From Spirochaetes bacterium GWE1_32_154 (GTDB taxonomy: Bacteria > Spirochaetota > GWE2-31-10): DNA of 39,025 nucleotides. The position numbers were made by a program, and so were the translations under genes. The DNA is taken from contig MIAY01000020.1 in the NCBI GenBank assembly GCA_001829315.1, forward strand, positions 1 to 39,025. The letters are read 5' to 3'. This document shows, piece after piece, positions 4,634 through 16,664 of the stretch. The notes beneath the pieces were generated by a model. The model was given only the letters and a program-made list of their open reading frames with translations. It had not been told where the DNA came from and searched no databases. Position 1 is the stretch's first letter. Each line of letters starts with the position of its first letter.

Positions 4634-4740
4634 TTTAAAATCATACTGTATATAATTATACTATTTTCAATTTCGAACACATTTCACAACATTTTTATAG
4701 CTTATACCGCTAAATTCAATTGAATTCAAAATATATATTT

Positions 4741-4756
4741 TGGCATACCTTATGCT
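4741..4756 (+). promoter_or_regulatory. Sigma-54-type (-24/-12) promoter
   Basis: TGGCATACCTTATGCT matches the consensus TGGCAYRNNNNTTGCW except for A in place of T at the -12 box. The GG-N10-GC spacing is exact. Transcription would begin near 4766, directly at the ATG at 4767. A perfect 14-bp palindrome, AATTCAATTGAATT (4713-4726), lies just upstream. Confidence 0.65.
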
Positions 4757-4766
4757 TATTACTAAT

Positions 4767-5126
4767 ATGAAAGTTTTAATAATAGTAAGTAAAGATAGTC
4801 AGTTGAATTCATTATGTGATTTAATAAAAAACAGCGGTTGTGACTGTGAAGTCTACAACAACTCTATAGATGGATTACGAAAATATAAGGAAAACAGTTT
4901 TGATATCGTTATTACTGATATGAAAATGCCTTTGGTGTCCGGTCTTGAAGTGGTACGAATTATTAAGAAGATCAATAACGATACACCGGTATTAGTGTAT
5001 GGTAATTGTGATAAAACAGCGAAACTATGCAGTGAACATGGAGCTGAAAGAATAATTACGAAAGATTTCACTCCTGAATTGATTTTGAATGAGATCAAAG
5101 ACTTATGCCACAGTCTAAAAAAATAA
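4767..5126 (+). CDS. Single-domain response regulator
   Basis: This 119-residue receiver-only protein has no output domain. The phosphoacceptor Asp is in VITDMKMP and the conserved Lys near the end is in ERIITKDF. The acidic pair reads KD (VSKDS) instead of DD. The Thr/Ser switch residue after beta-4 appears replaced, since VLVYGN has Gly there, so phosphorylation-driven switching may be altered. I start it at ATG 4767 because MKVLIIVSKDS is a typical receiver start; an in-frame ATG at 4752 overlaps the -12 promoter box. No Shine-Dalgarno precedes it, consistent with a leaderless mRNA from the sigma-54-type site. It could act as a CheY-like shuttle for the chemosensory cluster, which has no cheY of its own. 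Confidence 0.85.
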   Translation: MKVLIIVSKDSQLNSLCDLIKNSGCDCEVYNNSIDGLRKYKENSFDIVITDMKMPLVSGLEVVRIIKKINNDTPVLVYGNCDKTAKLCSEHGAERIITKDFTPELILNEIKDLCHSLKK

Positions 5127-9174: not shown

Positions 9175-10176
9175 TTAAATTTTTTCTCTTTCATTAATTT
9201 CTTTTAATGCATTTATTATTTCAATATCCCAGAATCCTTTTTTATATTCCTCATACAATATATCAAAAGCCGTATCAAAGGAAAGTGCATCTCTATACAC
9301 TCTTTTTGATGTAAGCGCATCAAAAACATCGGCAACCGAAACAATTTGAACTTCTATTGGAAGGTCATTTCTTTTTAACCCGTCAGGATAACCTGAACCA
9401 TCAAGTTTTTCATGATGACTTCGTATTATACCAAGATATGGCTGGAAAGTTTTTAAATTAAGACATATATTATAACCATAAACAGAATGATTTTTAATTT
9501 CTGAGAATTCCGGTGCCGTTAATCCTCCGGTTTTCAATAAAACTGAATCACGAACACCGATTTTACCAATATCATGAAGTAGAGCCCCTTGTCTTATAAT
9601 CTCTATTTTTTGCTTATCAAGTTTTAAATGCTGAGCAATATGTTCAGCAATATTAGAAACTCTTTCTGAATGACCTCGTGTGTATACATCACGGATTTCA
9701 ATTGTATAGAGAAGGGAATCAATAAATACCTGTATTGTTTCAAAATCTCTTAAATTTTCAATTCTTCTGATAAAATTATATATTTTCAGACGTAGAATAT
9801 CATTATTCACCGGTTTTGGAATAAAATCAACTATTTGATTAATAAAAATACGGTTTAAATCATTTGCATTTTCTGTTGTTGACATACAAATAATTGGAAT
9901 AGTTTCAGCATATTTTTTAATTAACTCAAGACTTGTAGTATGTTGAAAATAAAAATCTATAAGGAGAATATCAGGTTTTGTTACTTTAATTTTAATTTCA
10001 AGTTCTTCAAGAGTATTAAATACTATAGTGGTAAAGCCGTTCTCTCTGAGGTTGGCATCAAGTATTGAACAGATAACTTTAGAATCATCTGCTATATAAA
10101 TAACAATATTTTTAGCATAGTTTACAATTGTCCGGCTACATTGTTTTTCCCATAATTGTGCAATAGTATGCATCAT
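9175..10176 (-). CDS. Response regulator with HD-GYP c-di-GMP phosphodiesterase domain
   Basis: This 333-residue cytoplasmic protein should hydrolyse c-di-GMP under control of a phosphorylated receiver. The receiver (about 22-135) is intact: acidic pair D30-D31 (IADDS), phosphoacceptor D74 (LLIDFYF), Ser in ICMSTT and K121 (FIPKP). The HD-GYP domain (about 150-325) has GHSERV (168-173), HD201-202 in HDIGKIGV, HHEKLDGSGYP (254-264) and ADVFDALTSKRVYR. All expected metal and GYP residues are present. ATG follows GGGAG. It is transcribed divergently from the che operon and has the only complete receiver there, so I infer it is the phosphorylation target of the neighbouring CheA. A sigma-54-like site lies upstream. 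Confidence 0.93.
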   Translation of the reverse strand: MMHTIAQLWEKQCSRTIVNYAKNIVIYIADDSKVICSILDANLRENGFTTIVFNTLEELEIKIKVTKPDILLIDFYFQHTTSLELIKKYAETIPIICMSTTENANDLNRIFINQIVDFIPKPVNNDILRLKIYNFIRRIENLRDFETIQVFIDSLLYTIEIRDVYTRGHSERVSNIAEHIAQHLKLDKQKIEIIRQGALLHDIGKIGVRDSVLLKTGGLTAPEFSEIKNHSVYGYNICLNLKTFQPYLGIIRSHHEKLDGSGYPDGLKRNDLPIEVQIVSVADVFDALTSKRVYRDALSFDTAFDILYEEYKKGFWDIEIINALKEINEREKI

Positions 10177-10460: not shown

Positions 10461-12404
10461 ATGAAAAATGAAAATTTATTTATGGAAATTACAAATATCA
10501 TACTCAAGTATGAAAATGGGGATTTACTTGCATTATCATCACTATCAGATTTAATATACAATTTAAAAAACATAACCACTGACAATAGTTTAATACCGTA
10601 TATTGATGAAACAATTGAGGTTATTAAATATGGAATAAAAGAAGACAATTATGAAACATTCACGAAGGAGCTGTCAAAAAGAGTTGACTATATACAAAAT
10701 AGAATGGTTACCGAAATATTATTTACTGAAAAAAAATCAACACCGGTTGAAAAAATAGTGGAAATTGAAAAGATGCAAGGCGTATCAGATGAACTTATTA
10801 ATATTTTCATTGTCGAAGCAGAAGATAGAATTGCAAATGCTCAAAGATTAATACTTGAACTGGAAAACTCTTTATCGAATAGCGAAATTATTGATAATTT
10901 ATTTCAGATTTTCCATACAATTAAAGGTGAATGCGGATTTTTAAAAATTGAAACATTTGGTAATCTTACACATTCAATTGAACATATACTTGATTTATTA
11001 CGAAACAAAAAAATCGAAATTAATTCAAATGTAATTGACCGTTTACTTGAAGGTGTAGATTTATCAACCTCTATAATCTGGTATTTAAAAAAAGGAATCC
11101 TTTCATTACCGGATACTTCAGCCATAGAAGAATATTTAAAAAATATTGAACTGATAAAAAAATCTTCAGTTAATCCGCATATAATTATACAAGAGAAAAA
11201 AGATGAAGTCTTATACAAACACGAAAAAAAAGATGAACTTATAAAAGTTAAATCATCAAAGGTCAATTATATTGTTGATATGATTGGAGAATTACTGATC
11301 GCTAGCGGACAGATAGCCGATAACTCTGTTGCAGTTATTCAAACACGAAAAATAACAAAACTGCTTCAATACGCCGGTATGCAATTAAGAACAGAAAGTA
11401 TCAAAACATTATTTGGCAGTGCAAAAAGAATGGTACGTGATATATCACAAAAATTAAATAAAGTTGTCAGTATTGATGTATTTGGAGATGATCTTGAAAT
11501 TGATAGAAACCTTATAGAAAGCCTTGAGGAACCGATGATGCATCTTCTTCGCAATGCAATTCACCACGGCATTGAGAATGAAAGTGACAGATTGTTACAC
11601 GGGAAACCGGCATCAGGTCACATCACTATTGGAGCAGAACGAAAAGGAAATAACATCGTTATTTCAATTAAAGATGATGGTCAAGGACTTAATAAAAATA
11701 AAATAATTTCCAAGGCTTTGGAAAAGGGATTTATTAAACAAAACGAAATAGAAAGTTCATCAGACAATCAAATTTATAATATGATTTTTTTAAACGGTTT
11801 TTCCACCACTGATTCAGTTGATTTGGTTTCAGGACGTGGTGTTGGTATGAATATTGTAAAATCTGTTGTTGAGGCTCATAAAGGACGAATTGAAATACTG
11901 ACGGAGTCTAATAAATACTCACAATTTATGCTTAAATTTCCACTATCTACTGCAATTATTGATGGTATGATAGTAAGAATTGAAGATTCATTATTTATTA
12001 TCCCGATTTCATCTATGATTGAATCAATTAAATGTAATCCTATTAATATTCATCCGGTAAATACAATTTCGATTTATAAACTTCGTGATGAAATATTCCC
12101 GATAATTGATTTGAAAAAAATACTGGGTATAGATCAGGTTGATGGAAAAAACGATATTGGTATTGTTGTAGAAAGTTCTACAACGAAACGATTTCTTCTT
12201 AAAGTTGACGAAATAATAGCGAAAAAAGAAATAGTAATTAAATCACTTGGGAGTACATTTAAAAAACTGCAAGGGATCTCTTCAGGATGTGTTTTGTCCG
12301 GCGGTAAAATAGGATTTGTTTTTGATATTGATCAGATTGTTGAAATAAGTAAAGCATCTAATGAAGAAAATGTAGCAATAAAAGCTTCATTATGGCGCTC
12401 ATAA
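10461..12404 (+). CDS. cheA: Chemotaxis histidine kinase CheA without a P2 domain
   Basis: This 647-residue kinase autophosphorylates in response to receptor signals. Residues 1-100 form an extra helical region I cannot name. The Hpt (P1) domain at about 107-205 carries H152 in FHTIKGECGF. Only about 55 low-complexity, charged residues separate P1 from the P3 dimerisation helices (about 263-330), so there is no room for a P2 domain. The ATPase has HLLRNAIHHGIE (N365), DDGQGL (405-410), GFSTTD and GRGVGM (458-463). A CheW-like P5 domain occupies about 500-632. ATG 10461 has GAAGGAG 7 bases upstream. It is the first gene of a six-gene operon behind the sigma-54-type site. The missing P2 suggests phosphotransfer without CheY/CheB docking. 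Confidence 0.95.
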   Translation: MKNENLFMEITNIILKYENGDLLALSSLSDLIYNLKNITTDNSLIPYIDETIEVIKYGIKEDNYETFTKELSKRVDYIQNRMVTEILFTEKKSTPVEKIVEIEKMQGVSDELINIFIVEAEDRIANAQRLILELENSLSNSEIIDNLFQIFHTIKGECGFLKIETFGNLTHSIEHILDLLRNKKIEINSNVIDRLLEGVDLSTSIIWYLKKGILSLPDTSAIEEYLKNIELIKKSSVNPHIIIQEKKDEVLYKHEKKDELIKVKSSKVNYIVDMIGELLIASGQIADNSVAVIQTRKITKLLQYAGMQLRTESIKTLFGSAKRMVRDISQKLNKVVSIDVFGDDLEIDRNLIESLEEPMMHLLRNAIHHGIENESDRLLHGKPASGHITIGAERKGNNIVISIKDDGQGLNKNKIISKALEKGFIKQNEIESSSDNQIYNMIFLNGFSTTDSVDLVSGRGVGMNIVKSVVEAHKGRIEILTESNKYSQFMLKFPLSTAIIDGMIVRIEDSLFIIPISSMIESIKCNPINIHPVNTISIYKLRDEIFPIIDLKKILGIDQVDGKNDIGIVVESSTTKRFLLKVDEIIAKKEIVIKSLGSTFKKLQGISSGCVLSGGKIGFVFDIDQIVEISKASNEENVAIKASLWRS

Positions 12405-12734
12405 ATGAATAAAATAATAGATTCAATGAAAACAATAAGTAACTCAATAGAACATATTTTAAAAATTATAGATACAATGGATGACATTGCCGTTGAAACA
12501 AATAAGATTTCACTTGAGGCATCATTTGAGGTCAATCATGCTGGAGAAGCTATGCTTGGTGTCGTTACCGTTACCGATGAACTAAAAAAACTTGCTGACG
12601 AAGGCATGGAAACTGCAAAAAATGCATCAGACAAAATGGATACAATAATAAAAAAAGCTCACATCGGATTGGAAATATCAAAAGAATTATCTGATGTGTT
12701 TAAAAAGATAATTGATACATCTGATGATGTATAA
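12405..12734 (+). CDS. MCP signalling-hairpin microprotein (receptor tip only)
   Basis: These 109 residues align without gaps to the cytoplasmic signalling hairpin of the MCP encoded at 13318; by eye 37 of 92 positions are identical. There is no membrane segment, sensor or methylation-helix N-terminus. The tip reads DIAVETNKISLEASFEVNHA where a normal receptor has [17 protein letters not shown]. The residues equivalent to Tsr F373, N381 and R388 are therefore Val, Glu and His, while E385 is kept. The ATG directly abuts the cheA TAA, is in the same frame as cheA, and has no clear Shine-Dalgarno, so translation would need reinitiation or readthrough. It may be a decoy or adaptor for CheA/CheW arrays. 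A decaying receptor fragment is the alternative. Confidence 0.7.
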   Translation: MNKIIDSMKTISNSIEHILKIIDTMDDIAVETNKISLEASFEVNHAGEAMLGVVTVTDELKKLADEGMETAKNASDKMDTIIKKAHIGLEISKELSDVFKKIIDTSDDV

Positions 12735-12786
12735 AGCGATTACGAGAGGTTCATGATTCTAATTACAATTAAAAAGGAGTGTGCTG

Positions 12787-13299
12787 ATGGAAATCAAAAA
12801 AAGAAAAAGACTTACTGATTCCCGATTTTTAAGTTTTATCATCGAGAATGAAGTTTACTGCATTGATATATTAAAAGTGAAAGAAATTCTTGGTATAACC
12901 ATTATTTCACCGGTTCCACAAACACCGGATTATATTAAAGGTGTCATCAATTTAAGGGGACAAATTATTCCAATCATAGATTTACGTTTAAAGTTTGGTA
13001 TGGAATTAAAAGAATATACAAAAAGAACAAGTATTATTGTCATAGAAATTTCTTATGACGATGAATTGACACATATGGGTGTCATAGTTGACAGTATTCA
13101 GGAAGTGATTTGCATTCCTGAAGACACTATTTCTAAAGTATCGTACATTAATGGGAAAATTCAAACCAATTTCATCAAAGGCATTGCTAATACTAATACC
13201 GGAATTATTATTGTTCTTAATGTTGTTGAAATTTTAAATGAAAATGAAAAGAAATTAATAAAATCTGTAGAAGATACAGTCGAACTAAATCAGAATTAA
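12787..13299 (+). CDS. cheW: CheW chemotaxis coupling protein
   Basis: This 170-residue adaptor links CheA P5 to receptors. The CheW domain is complete: RFLSFIIENEVYCIDILKVKEI, then PDYIKGVINLRGQIIPIIDLRLKFGM, then MGVIVDSIQEV and the C-terminal FIKGIANTNTGIIIVLNVVEIL. The start is ATG 12787, where AAGGAG is 7 bases away; the GTG at 12781 is too close to that site. It is 52 bases after the microprotein and 18 before the mcp gene. Confidence 0.95.
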   Translation: MEIKKRKRLTDSRFLSFIIENEVYCIDILKVKEILGITIISPVPQTPDYIKGVINLRGQIIPIIDLRLKFGMELKEYTKRTSIIVIEISYDDELTHMGVIVDSIQEVICIPEDTISKVSYINGKIQTNFIKGIANTNTGIIIVLNVVEILNENEKKLIKSVEDTVELNQN

Positions 13300-13317: not shown

Positions 13318-14805
13318 ATGAAATTACATTTAAGGACAAAATTACTATCAGGTTTTATGGCTATTACACTATTCGGTTTAATAATCGGAATAGTAGGAAT
13401 AGTGAATATGAAAAAAATTGCAGATACCGGAACATTTCTCTATAAAAAAACAACAGTTCCTCTTGAATATACCATTACAATCTCAACTAATTTTCACCGA
13501 ATACAAATCAATTTGTATAAACTTTTTTTTACGTCGAGCAAAACAGAACAAATTGAATTATCAAATATAATTAATACTCTATCCAAAGAAATAGATGTGA
13601 ATATACAACAATTTCAAACAACATATGTTACTGAAAACGGAAAAACTGTAATGGATGAATTTATCAAATCAAAAGCGATCTTAATTGCAGGTTCACAAAA
13701 TGTAATAAAACTTATTAATCAAGGTGGAAATAATCGGGCAATCTCGTTTCTAAAAAACGAACTTCAGGACACTATAGAATTATTACGTGAACAAATTGAT
13801 TCACTTATTCTACAAAAAACAGAATTCGCAAAAGAGACGTCAGATCATAATATAGAAACAGTAGAAAAAGCATTAATATTAATGATCGCTATTATTACCG
13901 CCGGTTTTATTCTTTCCATACTATTGGCACTGGTTTTTGGTATATTTATAATATCCCGACCAATTATGACCATAACAAGAGAACTGGCTTCCGGTTCATT
14001 ACAAATTTCATCTGCATCATCTCAGTTATCAATTGCAGCTCAAAACATGGCGAGCGGATCCATCGAACAAGCATCGGGAGTTGAAGAAACATCAGCATCA
14101 ATTGAAGAACTTGTTTCCATGACGAAGCAAAATCTTGAAAATCTTCGTTCATCTAATCAACTGGCTATAAAAACATCAGAAGTATCTGAAACAGGATTTA
14201 AAGAAATGGCAGTCATGCTTAATTCAATGTTAGAAATAGGAAAATCATCAGATGATATAATTAATATAATTGATATCATTGAAGATATCGCATTTCAAAC
14301 AAATATGCTTGCTTTAAATGCCTCTGTTGAAGCTGCTCGTGCCGGTGAAACCGGAATGGGTTTTGCAGTCGTTGCAGATGAAGTTAAAAATCTAGCAAAT
14401 AGAAGTGCCGATTCGGCAAAAAACACATCAAAAATAATAAAAGAATCAATTGTAAAAATAAATGCCGGCACGGAATCTGCCAAAAAACTAAGTGAATTTT
14501 TTAAGGAAATAGTCAACAACGCTAATTCATTGTCAATAATCACAAAAGAGGTAGAAAAAGCGAGTAAAGAACAGGATCTTGGAATTGATCAAATAAATCG
14601 TGCGATTATACAATTTGATTCTGTTATTCAAAAAAATGCGGCTATTTCTGAAGAAACAGCCGGTGCAGCAGAGGAACTGGAATCTCAAGTTGAAGCACTT
14701 AATGATATGGTAAAAAAACTATTTCTCGTTATAACCGGAAAAAAAACTGAAATAGCACAATCAAATATCAATAATAGTAGATTTCTATTACCTCCTGAAT
14801 TATAG
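13318..14805 (+). CDS. Methyl-accepting chemotaxis protein, apparently HAMP-less
   Basis: This 495-residue receptor has a first membrane segment at about 10-30 and a periplasmic helical bundle of about 155 residues, similar in size to 4HB sensors. The second membrane segment is at about 185-212. The sequence passes from [12 protein letters not shown] into the methylation helix ([19 protein letters not shown]) with too little length for a full HAMP. The tip is canonical, with [20 protein letters not shown]. It ends LLPPEL with no CheR-binding pentapeptide. ATG follows AAGAGGAG. As the only receptor in the operon it is the likely input to this CheA. Confidence 0.93.
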
Positions 14806-14820
14806 AAAACGGGTGTATAT

Positions 14821-15597
14821 ATGAATACTCAAATAACGAAGGATTTTAAAGATATTATTTATCATGAATTTGGTATAAATTTTTCAGTTGAAAAGAATTT
14901 TCTATTAGAGTGTAAAATAAAAAGATTGATTCAAAAAGAAGAATATAAAAGTATTGAGGATTTTTATAAAATAATCAAATCAGGTGAAAAGAATTCAATG
15001 GAAATTCTGATTAAATACATTACAACCAATCATACTTTTTTCTTTAGAGAAAAGGATCATCTTGATAAACTTTCAGAATTAATTCTTAAAAGTACAATTA
15101 AATGTCCTGTTATATGGTGTGCTGCCAGTTCAAGCGGAGAAGAAGTGTATTCAATAATCATTTCATTACTTGAAAATGACATAAAAAATTTTTTAATAAT
15201 TGCTTCTGATATCAATAATAATGTTCTTCAGAAAATGCATAAAGGGATTTACAATATAGGCCGGTTATTCGAAACCAGCCCCTCCATAAAGGCTAAATAT
15301 TTTAAAAAAATCGATGACACACACTATCAGATTCGTCCTGACTTACGTAATTTTATCAGTATAAAAAAAATAAACCTTATTAATCCAATGTATTTTGTAA
15401 GTCAATTTGATTATATTTTTTGTAAAAACGTATTAATCTATTTTGATAGTGAAACTCAGAAAAAAGCAATTAAAAATATAATGGTAAATCTCAAAGTTGG
15501 CGGATTTTTATTTATCGGGCATACAGAAACTTTACTTAATACAAAAATGAATGTAGAAAAAGAATCAAATTCGGTATACAAATATTTAGGAGCTTGA
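14821..15597 (+). CDS. cheR: CheR receptor methyltransferase
   Basis: This 258-residue enzyme methylates receptor glutamates using S-adenosylmethionine. Family blocks are present in order: TTNHTFFFREKDHL (about 60-73), the SAM loop WCAASSSGEEVYSI (about 99-112), ASDINNNVLQKMHKGIY, FDYIFCKNVLIYFD and FIGHTETL. Thr-Asn-His replaces the more usual Thr-Asn-Glu in the first block. The ribosome site is weak (GGGTG). It is followed closely by cheB. Confidence 0.94.
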   Translation: MNTQITKDFKDIIYHEFGINFSVEKNFLLECKIKRLIQKEEYKSIEDFYKIIKSGEKNSMEILIKYITTNHTFFFREKDHLDKLSELILKSTIKCPVIWCAASSSGEEVYSIIISLLENDIKNFLIIASDINNNVLQKMHKGIYNIGRLFETSPSIKAKYFKKIDDTHYQIRPDLRNFISIKKINLINPMYFVSQFDYIFCKNVLIYFDSETQKKAIKNIMVNLKVGGFLFIGHTETLLNTKMNVEKESNSVYKYLGA

Positions 15598-15599
15598 GC

Positions 15600-16664
15600 A
15601 TGAGTACAATTAATGTGTTATTAATAGATCGCTCTGAACACATACTAAAGCTACTGTCAAGACGATTGTCTGTACATCCTGATATCAGAATCATTGGGAC
15701 TGCAAATGACCCGTATCAGGCACGAAAGATTATTGAACACAAAAAAGTTGATATTATTGTCATGGAAACAAAATTACCCCGGATGAACGGATTAACATTT
15801 ATTAAATATTTAATGAAATACAATCCGATTTCTGTAATCATTCTCAGTTCAAAAGTATACAAAAATGCAGTAATTACTAAGAAAGCAATAGATTTAGGGG
15901 TTGTTGATATAATACCTAAACAATGCGGATTTTTTAGTATTAAGAAAACGATAATGAAACTTATCAAACAAATTGAAATTATCAAAAATGATAATTTCAA
16001 TTCAATTCGAATGTTTTTAGAGAAGAAAAATAATAATGCATTTATTATTCAGCAATTATTATATAAAAAAAAAATAGATTTAATGAATAAAATAATAGTC
16101 ATTGGAACTTCAACCGGCGGAACAACCGCTCTGGAAACATTATTTAAAGAATTTGACAATAATTTTCCAGCAACACTCGTTGTTATCCACATGCCCAAAG
16201 AATTTACCCGGTCATTTGCAAACCGCTTAAATATGAGTTCTTCTATTACAATAAAAGAAGCTGAAAACGGGGAAAAAGTAGTTCCGGCTACAGTTTACCT
16301 CGCAGCAGGCGGATATCACATGACTATAGAAATTGTCAAAAATTGTAAATATATAAAACTTACAGATGGGCCTAAAGTTTTTAACCAGCGACCTGCTGTT
16401 GATATATTATTTAATTCTGTTGCCCAAATATGTCAGAAAGATACCATTGGCATCCTTCTGACCGGTATGGGTAAAGACGGGGCTGAAGGGTTACTATCGA
16501 TCAAAAACAATGGCGGTTACACAATTGCCGAAGACGAAAAATCCTGTGTCATATTTGGTATGCCAAAAGAAGCAATGGAGTTGGGAGCAGTAACAGCTCT
16601 TTTACCTTTATCAAAAATAACACAACACGTAAAATCTCTGTTAAAAATACAGAAGTCCTCTTGA
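15600..16664 (+). CDS. cheB: CheB methylesterase with a Glu-substituted receiver
   Basis: This 354-residue protein joins a receiver (about 4-125) to a methylesterase (about 163-350) that removes receptor methyl groups and deamidates glutamines. The esterase triad is intact: S171 in GTSTGG, H197 in VIHMP and D293 in GMGKDGAEG. In the receiver, the phosphoacceptor position reads E56 (VMETKLPRMNG) instead of Asp, and the acidic pair is D10-R11; K107 remains. It therefore cannot be phosphorylated in the normal way and may be locked on. ATG 15600 has AGGAG 7 bases upstream; an in-frame TTG at 15594 overlaps the cheR stop. The last gene of the operon, its stop lies inside a hairpin. Confidence 0.94.
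   Translation: MSTINVLLIDRSEHILKLLSRRLSVHPDIRIIGTANDPYQARKIIEHKKVDIIVMETKLPRMNGLTFIKYLMKYNPISVIILSSKVYKNAVITKKAIDLGVVDIIPKQCGFFSIKKTIMKLIKQIEIIKNDNFNSIRMFLEKKNNNAFIIQQLLYKKKIDLMNKIIVIGTSTGGTTALETLFKEFDNNFPATLVVIHMPKEFTRSFANRLNMSSSITIKEAENGEKVVPATVYLAAGGYHMTIEIVKNCKYIKLTDGPKVFNQRPAVDILFNSVAQICQKDTIGILLTGMGKDGAEGLLSIKNNGGYTIAEDEKSCVIFGMPKEAMELGAVTALLPLSKITQHVKSLLKIQKSS

Follow-up and report, generated by a model that had tools for sequence, protein, structure and literature searches.

The window is identical with contig C20, 39025 bases long, from a draft genome of 4.03 Mb in 43 contigs, and encodes a CheB whose receiver domain is without the normal site of aspartate phosphorylation. The source organism is probably a spirochaete, as FlaA (PF04620), a marker of spirochaetes, gave four matches in this genome and none in 14 control genomes. 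The protein probably represents a pseudo-receiver CheB that originated from the duplication of a whole chemosensory cluster and works at a fixed level without phosphorylation feedback. It is most likely a natural version of the feedback-free CheB so far known as a laboratory mutant. Phosphorylation feedback on CheB has been credited with uniform kinase activity between cells, and Escherichia coli with CheB D56E showed a bimodal activity and poor migration in soft agar (PMC5809149). A natural cluster free of this feedback, in a cell whose sister cluster keeps it, would provide a ready comparison for the purpose of the feedback. The mechanisms switching bacterial pseudo-receivers have been stated to 'remain a mystery' (PMC12632262); in the window CheB a pseudo-receiver is fused to an easily assayed enzyme.

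Gene and domain organization

The cheB gene is located directly downstream of cheA, cheW, an MCP gene and cheR. Cluster and domains comprise the following features (window coordinates, strand).

9175-10176, minus: HD-GYP response regulator with an intact receiver, oriented divergently from cheA and included in the duplication of the cluster (Pfam Response_reg and HD_5)
10461-12404, plus: cheA, 647 amino acids, Hpt histidine context and motifs for ATP binding present, one module some 50 residues long missing
12405-12734, plus: open reading frame of 109 amino acids, detached MCP signalling tip (Pfam MCPsignal, 1-90)
12781-13299, plus: cheW, 172 amino acids, start possibly the ATG six bases on (Pfam CheW)
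13318-14805, plus: MCP, 495 amino acids, four-helix-bundle sensor, methylation-site-like motifs (Pfam 4HB_MCP_1 and MCPsignal; motif scan)
14821-15597, plus: cheR, receptor methyltransferase, 258 amino acids (Pfam CheR)
15600-16664, plus: cheB, 354 amino acids, CheB-family methylesterase with pseudo-receiver (translation, Pfam, phmmer, AlphaFold2 model)
15600-15965, plus: receiver domain, residues 1-122, fold retained, phosphorylation residues gone (Pfam Response_reg, 6-116)
15627-15629, plus: D10 codon
15630-15632, plus: codon 11, Arg where the acidic pair normally has its second Asp
15765-15767, plus: codon 56, Glu at the phosphoacceptor position instead of Asp (GAA, GAT in the paralogue)
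15771-15773, plus: codon 58, Lys replacing a conserved Glu
15918-15923, plus: codons 107-108, conserved Lys retained, the next Pro replaced by Gln
15966-16085, plus: linker, residues 123-162, fastest-diverging part of CheB (25% identity to the paralogue, dN/dS 0.49)
16086-16664, plus: esterase domain, residues 163-354, with S171, H197 and D293 (Pfam CheB_methylest, 166-343)

The esterase domain (CheB_methylest, PF01339, residues 166-343) scored 207 bits against a cut-off of 24, the Ser-His-Asp triad is present, and the neighbourhood is chemosensory. Judged by its sequence, the protein is a CheB-family methylesterase with a predicted receptor methylesterase/deamidase activity. The initial annotation had described the triad S171, H197 and D293 as intact, and the translation agrees. 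Ser and His were found in all 108 CheBs of the alignment described below and Asp in 107, the remaining one having a gap.

Duplication of the chemosensory cluster

A second copy of the whole cluster lies on contig C1 of the same genome, at about 122.8-132.2 kb. Both copies open with the divergent HD-GYP response regulator and cheA and close with cheR-cheB. The proteins of the two copies are 70.8% (HD-GYP regulator), 66.6% (CheA), 70.3% (CheW), 69.0% (CheR) and 55.0% (CheB) identical. The CheB from C1, the paralogue of the window CheB, is canonical (D10, D11, D56, K107).

In G353 and G365, two genomes of greater distance, the common order is cheA, soluble MCP-like protein, cheY, cheW, MCP, cheR, cheB, which is probably the older arrangement. 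The window cluster retains cheW, an MCP of the G353/G365 type, cheR and cheB, and has lost the soluble MCP-like protein and cheY; cheY is present in the C1 cluster and in both distant genomes. The window MCP matches the MCPs of G353 and G365 end to end (44.6 and 41.3% identity) and the C1 MCP in the second half only. In place of the soluble protein and cheY stands the remnant of 109 amino acids, which begins at the base after the cheA TAA stop, in the same frame. It aligned without gaps to residues 425-533 of the C1 cluster MCP, with changed tip residues and the membrane part absent. This MCP tip may either modulate the array as a soluble protein or be a relic.

No orthologue of the window CheB copy was present in the genomes searched, and no genome of the same genus occurred among 60 genomes or among the matches listed from 392 genomes. 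Outside its own genome, the closest matches to the window CheB among those listed were 46% (best score) and 49% identical. A search of plasmids with the window CheB yielded only matches below 60% identity.

Residues of the phosphorylation site

The receiver was aligned in a set of 108 CheB receivers, the window CheB and 107 others of the same phylum, own paralogues included. The set was drawn from the matches listed and consists mostly of best matches to the window CheB, hence it is not a census; most esterase-only or receiver-only rows were left out, as were L008, which lacks a receiver, and three duplicates. Of the 108 sequences, 104 have Asp at position 56, three have Gly (L007 of the same genome, L116 and L119) and only the window CheB has Glu. 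At position 11, Asp was likewise found in 104 sequences, Asn in two, a gap in one and Arg in the window CheB alone. At position 58, 98 sequences have Glu and two have Lys, the window CheB among the latter. K107 is shared by 107 of the 108, including the window CheB, while the following Pro (102/108) is replaced by Gln in the window CheB only.

The initial annotation had named a Glu at the phosphoacceptor position, an acidic pair broken to Asp-Arg and a retained Lys. The translation of 15600-16664 gives E56, D10-R11 and K107, respectively, and the altered residue behind the Lys (K-Q, not K-P) is to be added. In phmmer, the window CheB aligned over its length with Salmonella CheB (1a2o), with no gap near residue 56. 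D51, the nearest Asp, was considered as substitute phosphoacceptor and rejected. No nearby Asp replaces D56, since D51 precedes beta-3 in the model and is invariant in 28 of 28 aligned CheBs beside their own D56. This alternative, raised by the initial annotation, was thus checked in both structural model and alignment.

Pseudo-receivers have been defined as receivers recognized by PF00072 without key active-site residues (PMC12632262). The window receiver is recognized by Response_reg with 60.5 bits (cut-off 30.2), and both D and DD2 are replaced. It keeps S83 (Ser/Thr position) and K107 as a canonical CheB does, but lacks the Asp phosphoacceptor behind beta-3 and the acidic Mg2+-binding pair (D10 R11). 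As far as sequence can tell, it would be unable to take part in ordinary Asp phosphorylation, with no Asp at the site and Arg as second acidic residue.

An isolated point mutation was rejected as explanation. According to the initial annotation, Asp in orthologues would point to an isolated mutation or a sequencing error. Paralogue and all near relatives do have Asp at position 56; the isolated mutation was not borne out. A lineage-specific loss is indicated instead, because ten conserved receiver positions are altered in the window copy alone. Among the 108 receivers, the E56/R11 state was seen in the window copy only.

Structure models

In the AlphaFold2 model of the window CheB (mean pLDDT 88, pTM 0.57), strands (E) and helices (H) of the receiver follow in the order E4-9, H13-24, E29-35, H38-47, E52-55, H64-74, E78-83, H90-98, E103-106 and H111-130. 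Beta-3 covers residues 52-55 and E56 is the next residue. The model of the paralogue (pTM 0.58) has identical beta-3 boundaries, with D56 at that place. The window receiver model superimposed on the Thermotoga maritima CheB receiver 3t8y with Z 21.1 and an rmsd of 1.9 Å over 132 residues, the esterase model on 1chd with Z 34.9 and 1.3 Å over 196 residues. The two-domain rmsd to 1a2o was 14.0 Å for the window CheB and 10.9 Å for the paralogue, a canonical control that was also not modelled in the closed form.

Methylesterase activity

Phosphorylation normally opens CheB (PMC8609364). The D56E exchange in E. coli CheB prevents phosphorylation, and a basal activity of about 10% of that of CheB-P remains (PMC2873904). 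This mutant has been assumed and modelled as unphosphorylated CheB, and the catalytic rates rise from D56E over the wild type to the isolated catalytic domain (PMC5809149). In Pseudomonas aeruginosa, CheB2 D55E had a modestly raised pentapeptide affinity only (PMC7698151). The proposal of the initial annotation that Glu turns the window CheB into a constitutively active methylesterase finds no counterpart in these mutants: E. coli D56E is basal, not switched on, and the effect in CheB2 is modest. The loss of phosphorylation feedback, suggested by the same source, is very probable. The feedback should be gone because the receiver lacks ordinary Asp phosphorylation while the esterase triad is intact.

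The window CheB likely works at a fixed, unregulated rate, since E. coli CheB D56E is not phosphorylated and has basal activity. The analogy is imperfect, as E. coli D56E retains Asp 11 and Glu 58, where the window CheB has Arg and Lys. In the proposed sequence of events, the whole chemosensory cluster was duplicated and the receiver of the window copy of CheB then became a pseudo-receiver. CheA would no longer phosphorylate this CheB, which would demethylate the receptor of the cluster at a fixed level set by the amount of protein. That level is probably near the basal, autoinhibited rate. For adaptation, the cluster would depend on CheR and CheB acting on the receptor according to its activity, with no kinase-driven CheB feedback.

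A CheB locked in the active state is an unlikely alternative to this basal level; E56, R11 and K58 would hold the receiver open and the esterase would always run at full rate. S83 and K107, the would-be holders of a phosphoryl mimic, are kept, and residue 11 of CheB is presumably equivalent to residue 13 of CheY. The variant CheY D13K/Y106W, altered at the latter residue, is constitutively active (PMC11528121). Many response regulators can be partly activated by Glu at the Asp position, and no other replacement is as common in receivers without this Asp (PMC12632262). Against a lock stand the activity of E. coli CheB D56E, which is basal and not high, and the change, in this copy alone, of the Pro after the Lys and of nine more conserved receiver positions, a pattern more in keeping with relaxed constraint than with the tuning of a switch.

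Evolutionary rates and constraint

Changes specific to the window and to the paralogue copy were counted at sites where both outgroups (G353 and G365) agree. CheA has 22 window-only and 15 paralogue-only changes (418 sites), CheR nine and eight (151 sites), and CheW 18 and four (137 sites). In CheB, 54 window-only changes face seven paralogue-only changes (258 sites). They divide into 30 and one in the receiver (98 sites), five and none in the linker (18 sites) and 19 and six in the esterase domain (142 sites); the asymmetry differs between receiver and esterase (Fisher p 0.002). In a tree of 12 CheBs, the branch of the window CheB measured 0.87 and that of the paralogue 0.11; the corresponding lengths were 0.83 and 0.06 in the receiver and 0.51 and 0.09 in the esterase domain. 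Columns kept in at least 85% of the other CheBs were regarded as conserved, 27 in the receiver and 40 in the esterase domain. The window CheB departs at 12 of the former, two of them in common with the paralogue, and at three of the latter, again two in common. Without the shared departures, the difference remains (Fisher p 0.0003).

The change is more than a point change; it is specific to the window copy and concentrated in the receiver. By these comparisons the loss of constraint is centred on the CheB receiver and incomplete, with no such asymmetry in CheA and CheR. The esterase domain is also accelerated (19 against six changes), so its constraint may be weaker too, and CheW is accelerated likewise. 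The receiver showed a pairwise dN/dS of 0.22 and the esterase domain one of 0.12, and upper bounds for the window branch were 0.44 and 0.24; all four values are rough, as dS is saturated. The window receiver seems to be kept as a fold, not as a switch.

It is quite improbable that the duplicate cluster is decaying and its CheB is on the way to a pseudogene. The deletion of cheY and of most of an MCP, with an MCP tip left behind, the missing CheA module and the accelerated CheB and CheW would suit decay. However, all main reading frames of the window cluster are intact, the constraint on CheA and CheR is about that on the paralogues, and the rough dN/dS values of both CheB domains also count against decay. 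When the observed differences were placed at random, a stop-free receiver remained in only 0.35% of neutral simulations, or in 4.2% with half the differences. A pseudogene state of the whole cluster was rejected as first choice on the basis of the frames, the rate comparison, dN/dS and simulations.

Comparably improbable is a pseudo-receiver under another form of control, in which a ligand, a protein partner or another modification opens and closes the esterase. Such control is established for some bacterial pseudo-receivers (PMC12632262), and the receiver is still somewhat constrained (dN/dS 0.22, with saturated dS). However, no partner or ligand site was found in the analysis, nor an orthologue that would reveal a new constraint. 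A sequencing or assembly error at the key codons, conceivable in a single draft genome of 43 contigs, has a negligible probability and was rejected, as at least four conserved receiver codons (11, 56, 58 and 108) differ from the paralogue, codon 11 at all three bases, with the frame undamaged.

CheA, loss of cheY and putative output

Four CheAs were aligned, and the window CheA alone is without a module, roughly 50 residues long, that lies between Hpt and the dimerization helices. It is present in the CheAs encoded at L060:1-2008 (minus strand), L135:7884-9986 and L136:10508-12697 and deleted in that at 10461-12404 (plus strand) of the window. No Pfam family reached its cut-off on the module, which was not recognized as P2; DUF4388 scored best (16.3 bits against 25, CheA of G353). 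By eye, the module resembles MshEN/GspE-N repeats. Its position is taken to be that of P2 in E. coli CheA. P2 promotes the binding of CheY in E. coli (PMC10782961). A docking role of the module is a guess.

The window CheA keeps the Hpt His context, the N-box and the DDGxG and GRGxGM motifs. The CheR motifs are also kept, and the window MCP has two full methylation-site-like motifs. In the window cluster, the branch that would carry phosphate to CheY and CheB looks dismantled; the motifs of kinase, methyltransferase, esterase and receptor are still present. Next to cheA, the HD-GYP regulator has intact receiver and HD-GYP motifs. It is the natural candidate for the CheA phosphate, because the cluster has no cheY and the regulator, with its motifs intact, was duplicated along with the cluster. 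Phosphate from the window CheA may pass to this regulator, and the output might then be the breakdown of cyclic-di-GMP and not motor control; both steps are less sure than those proposed for CheB. The genome encodes five further CheA-type kinases above the H-kinase_dim cut-off, and a CheY from elsewhere in the genome could be the partner of the window CheA. In 21 genomes, close relatives of the HD-GYP regulator were limited to the two copies of this genome (71% identity to each other); the next best-scoring match was 35% identical, and partial matches to the HD domain reached 43 and 46%. A stand-alone receiver protein at 4740-5126 (plus strand) of the window has Ser-Lys at the place of the acidic pair and keeps Asp and Lys.

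A wider reading is possible but doubtful. It assumes that the duplicate cluster was rewired into a natural chemosensory pathway whose feedback loop is open. CheA would signal only to the HD-GYP cyclic-di-GMP phosphodiesterase, and a fixed CheB, possibly permanently open via R11-E56-K58, would keep demethylation at a constant background level. The loss of CheY, of the CheA module and of the CheB switch would have been the joint loss of one functional branch.

Comparison with known systems

A Wsp-type system was considered for the window cluster. The output of Wsp-type chemosensory systems is a GGDEF response regulator (WspR). The regulator adjoining the window cheA has an HD-GYP domain in place of this GGDEF output.

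The window CheB resembles the canonical CheBs of Salmonella (1a2o) and Pectobacterium atrosepticum (6ymz) in receiver, esterase domain and triad (full-length E 1.9e-70 and 2.4e-72, respectively). It differs in the missing phosphoacceptor Asp, the Arg in the acidic pair and the Gln after the conserved Lys. With the pseudo-receivers reviewed in PMC12632262 it shares recognition by Response_reg without D and DD2, Glu being the commonest replacement there, but the window pseudo-receiver is joined to a CheB esterase. The term 'CheB' is absent from the main text of that review. F3-class CheBs of Campylobacterota are likewise naturally free of phosphorylation control, according to PMC9321776; their receiver is absent, whereas that of the window CheB is present but disarmed.

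Other disarmed receivers were found in the CheBs L007, L116, L119 and L057, which have Gly at the phosphoacceptor position and occupy other branches of the esterase-domain tree. In this tree, L007 and L116 are sisters and the window CheB pairs with its own paralogue. Disarmed CheB receivers appear to arise repeatedly, because the Gly-site CheBs branch apart from the window CheB. L007 belongs to the same genome as the window (contig C17, L138:9168-10196, minus strand); its receiver is still more degenerate than that of the window CheB, with an L-N acidic pair, Gly for Asp and no Lys, and Pfam finds no receiver. Its cluster on C17 also encodes a CheA-receiver hybrid and two proteins that look cyclase-like by eye. 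The sister L116 derives from genome G048 and L119 from G047. Among 11 distant CheBs of other phyla, obtained by a contig scan with the window CheB, ten have Asp at position 56 and one, L057 from a Planctomycetota MAG, has Gly. In L056 and L058, from Anaerolineales and Aquidulcis MAGs, R-P stands instead of K-P after beta-5.

The listings of literature searches in open-licence PubMed Central contained no report of a natural CheB whose phosphosite is Glu. A direct counterpart of the window CheB is the E. coli mutant CheB D56E, with Glu at the same position and the phosphorylation feedback removed. The window CheB differs from it in being natural, in carrying R11, K58 and Q108 and in belonging to a cluster that has lost cheY and the CheA module.
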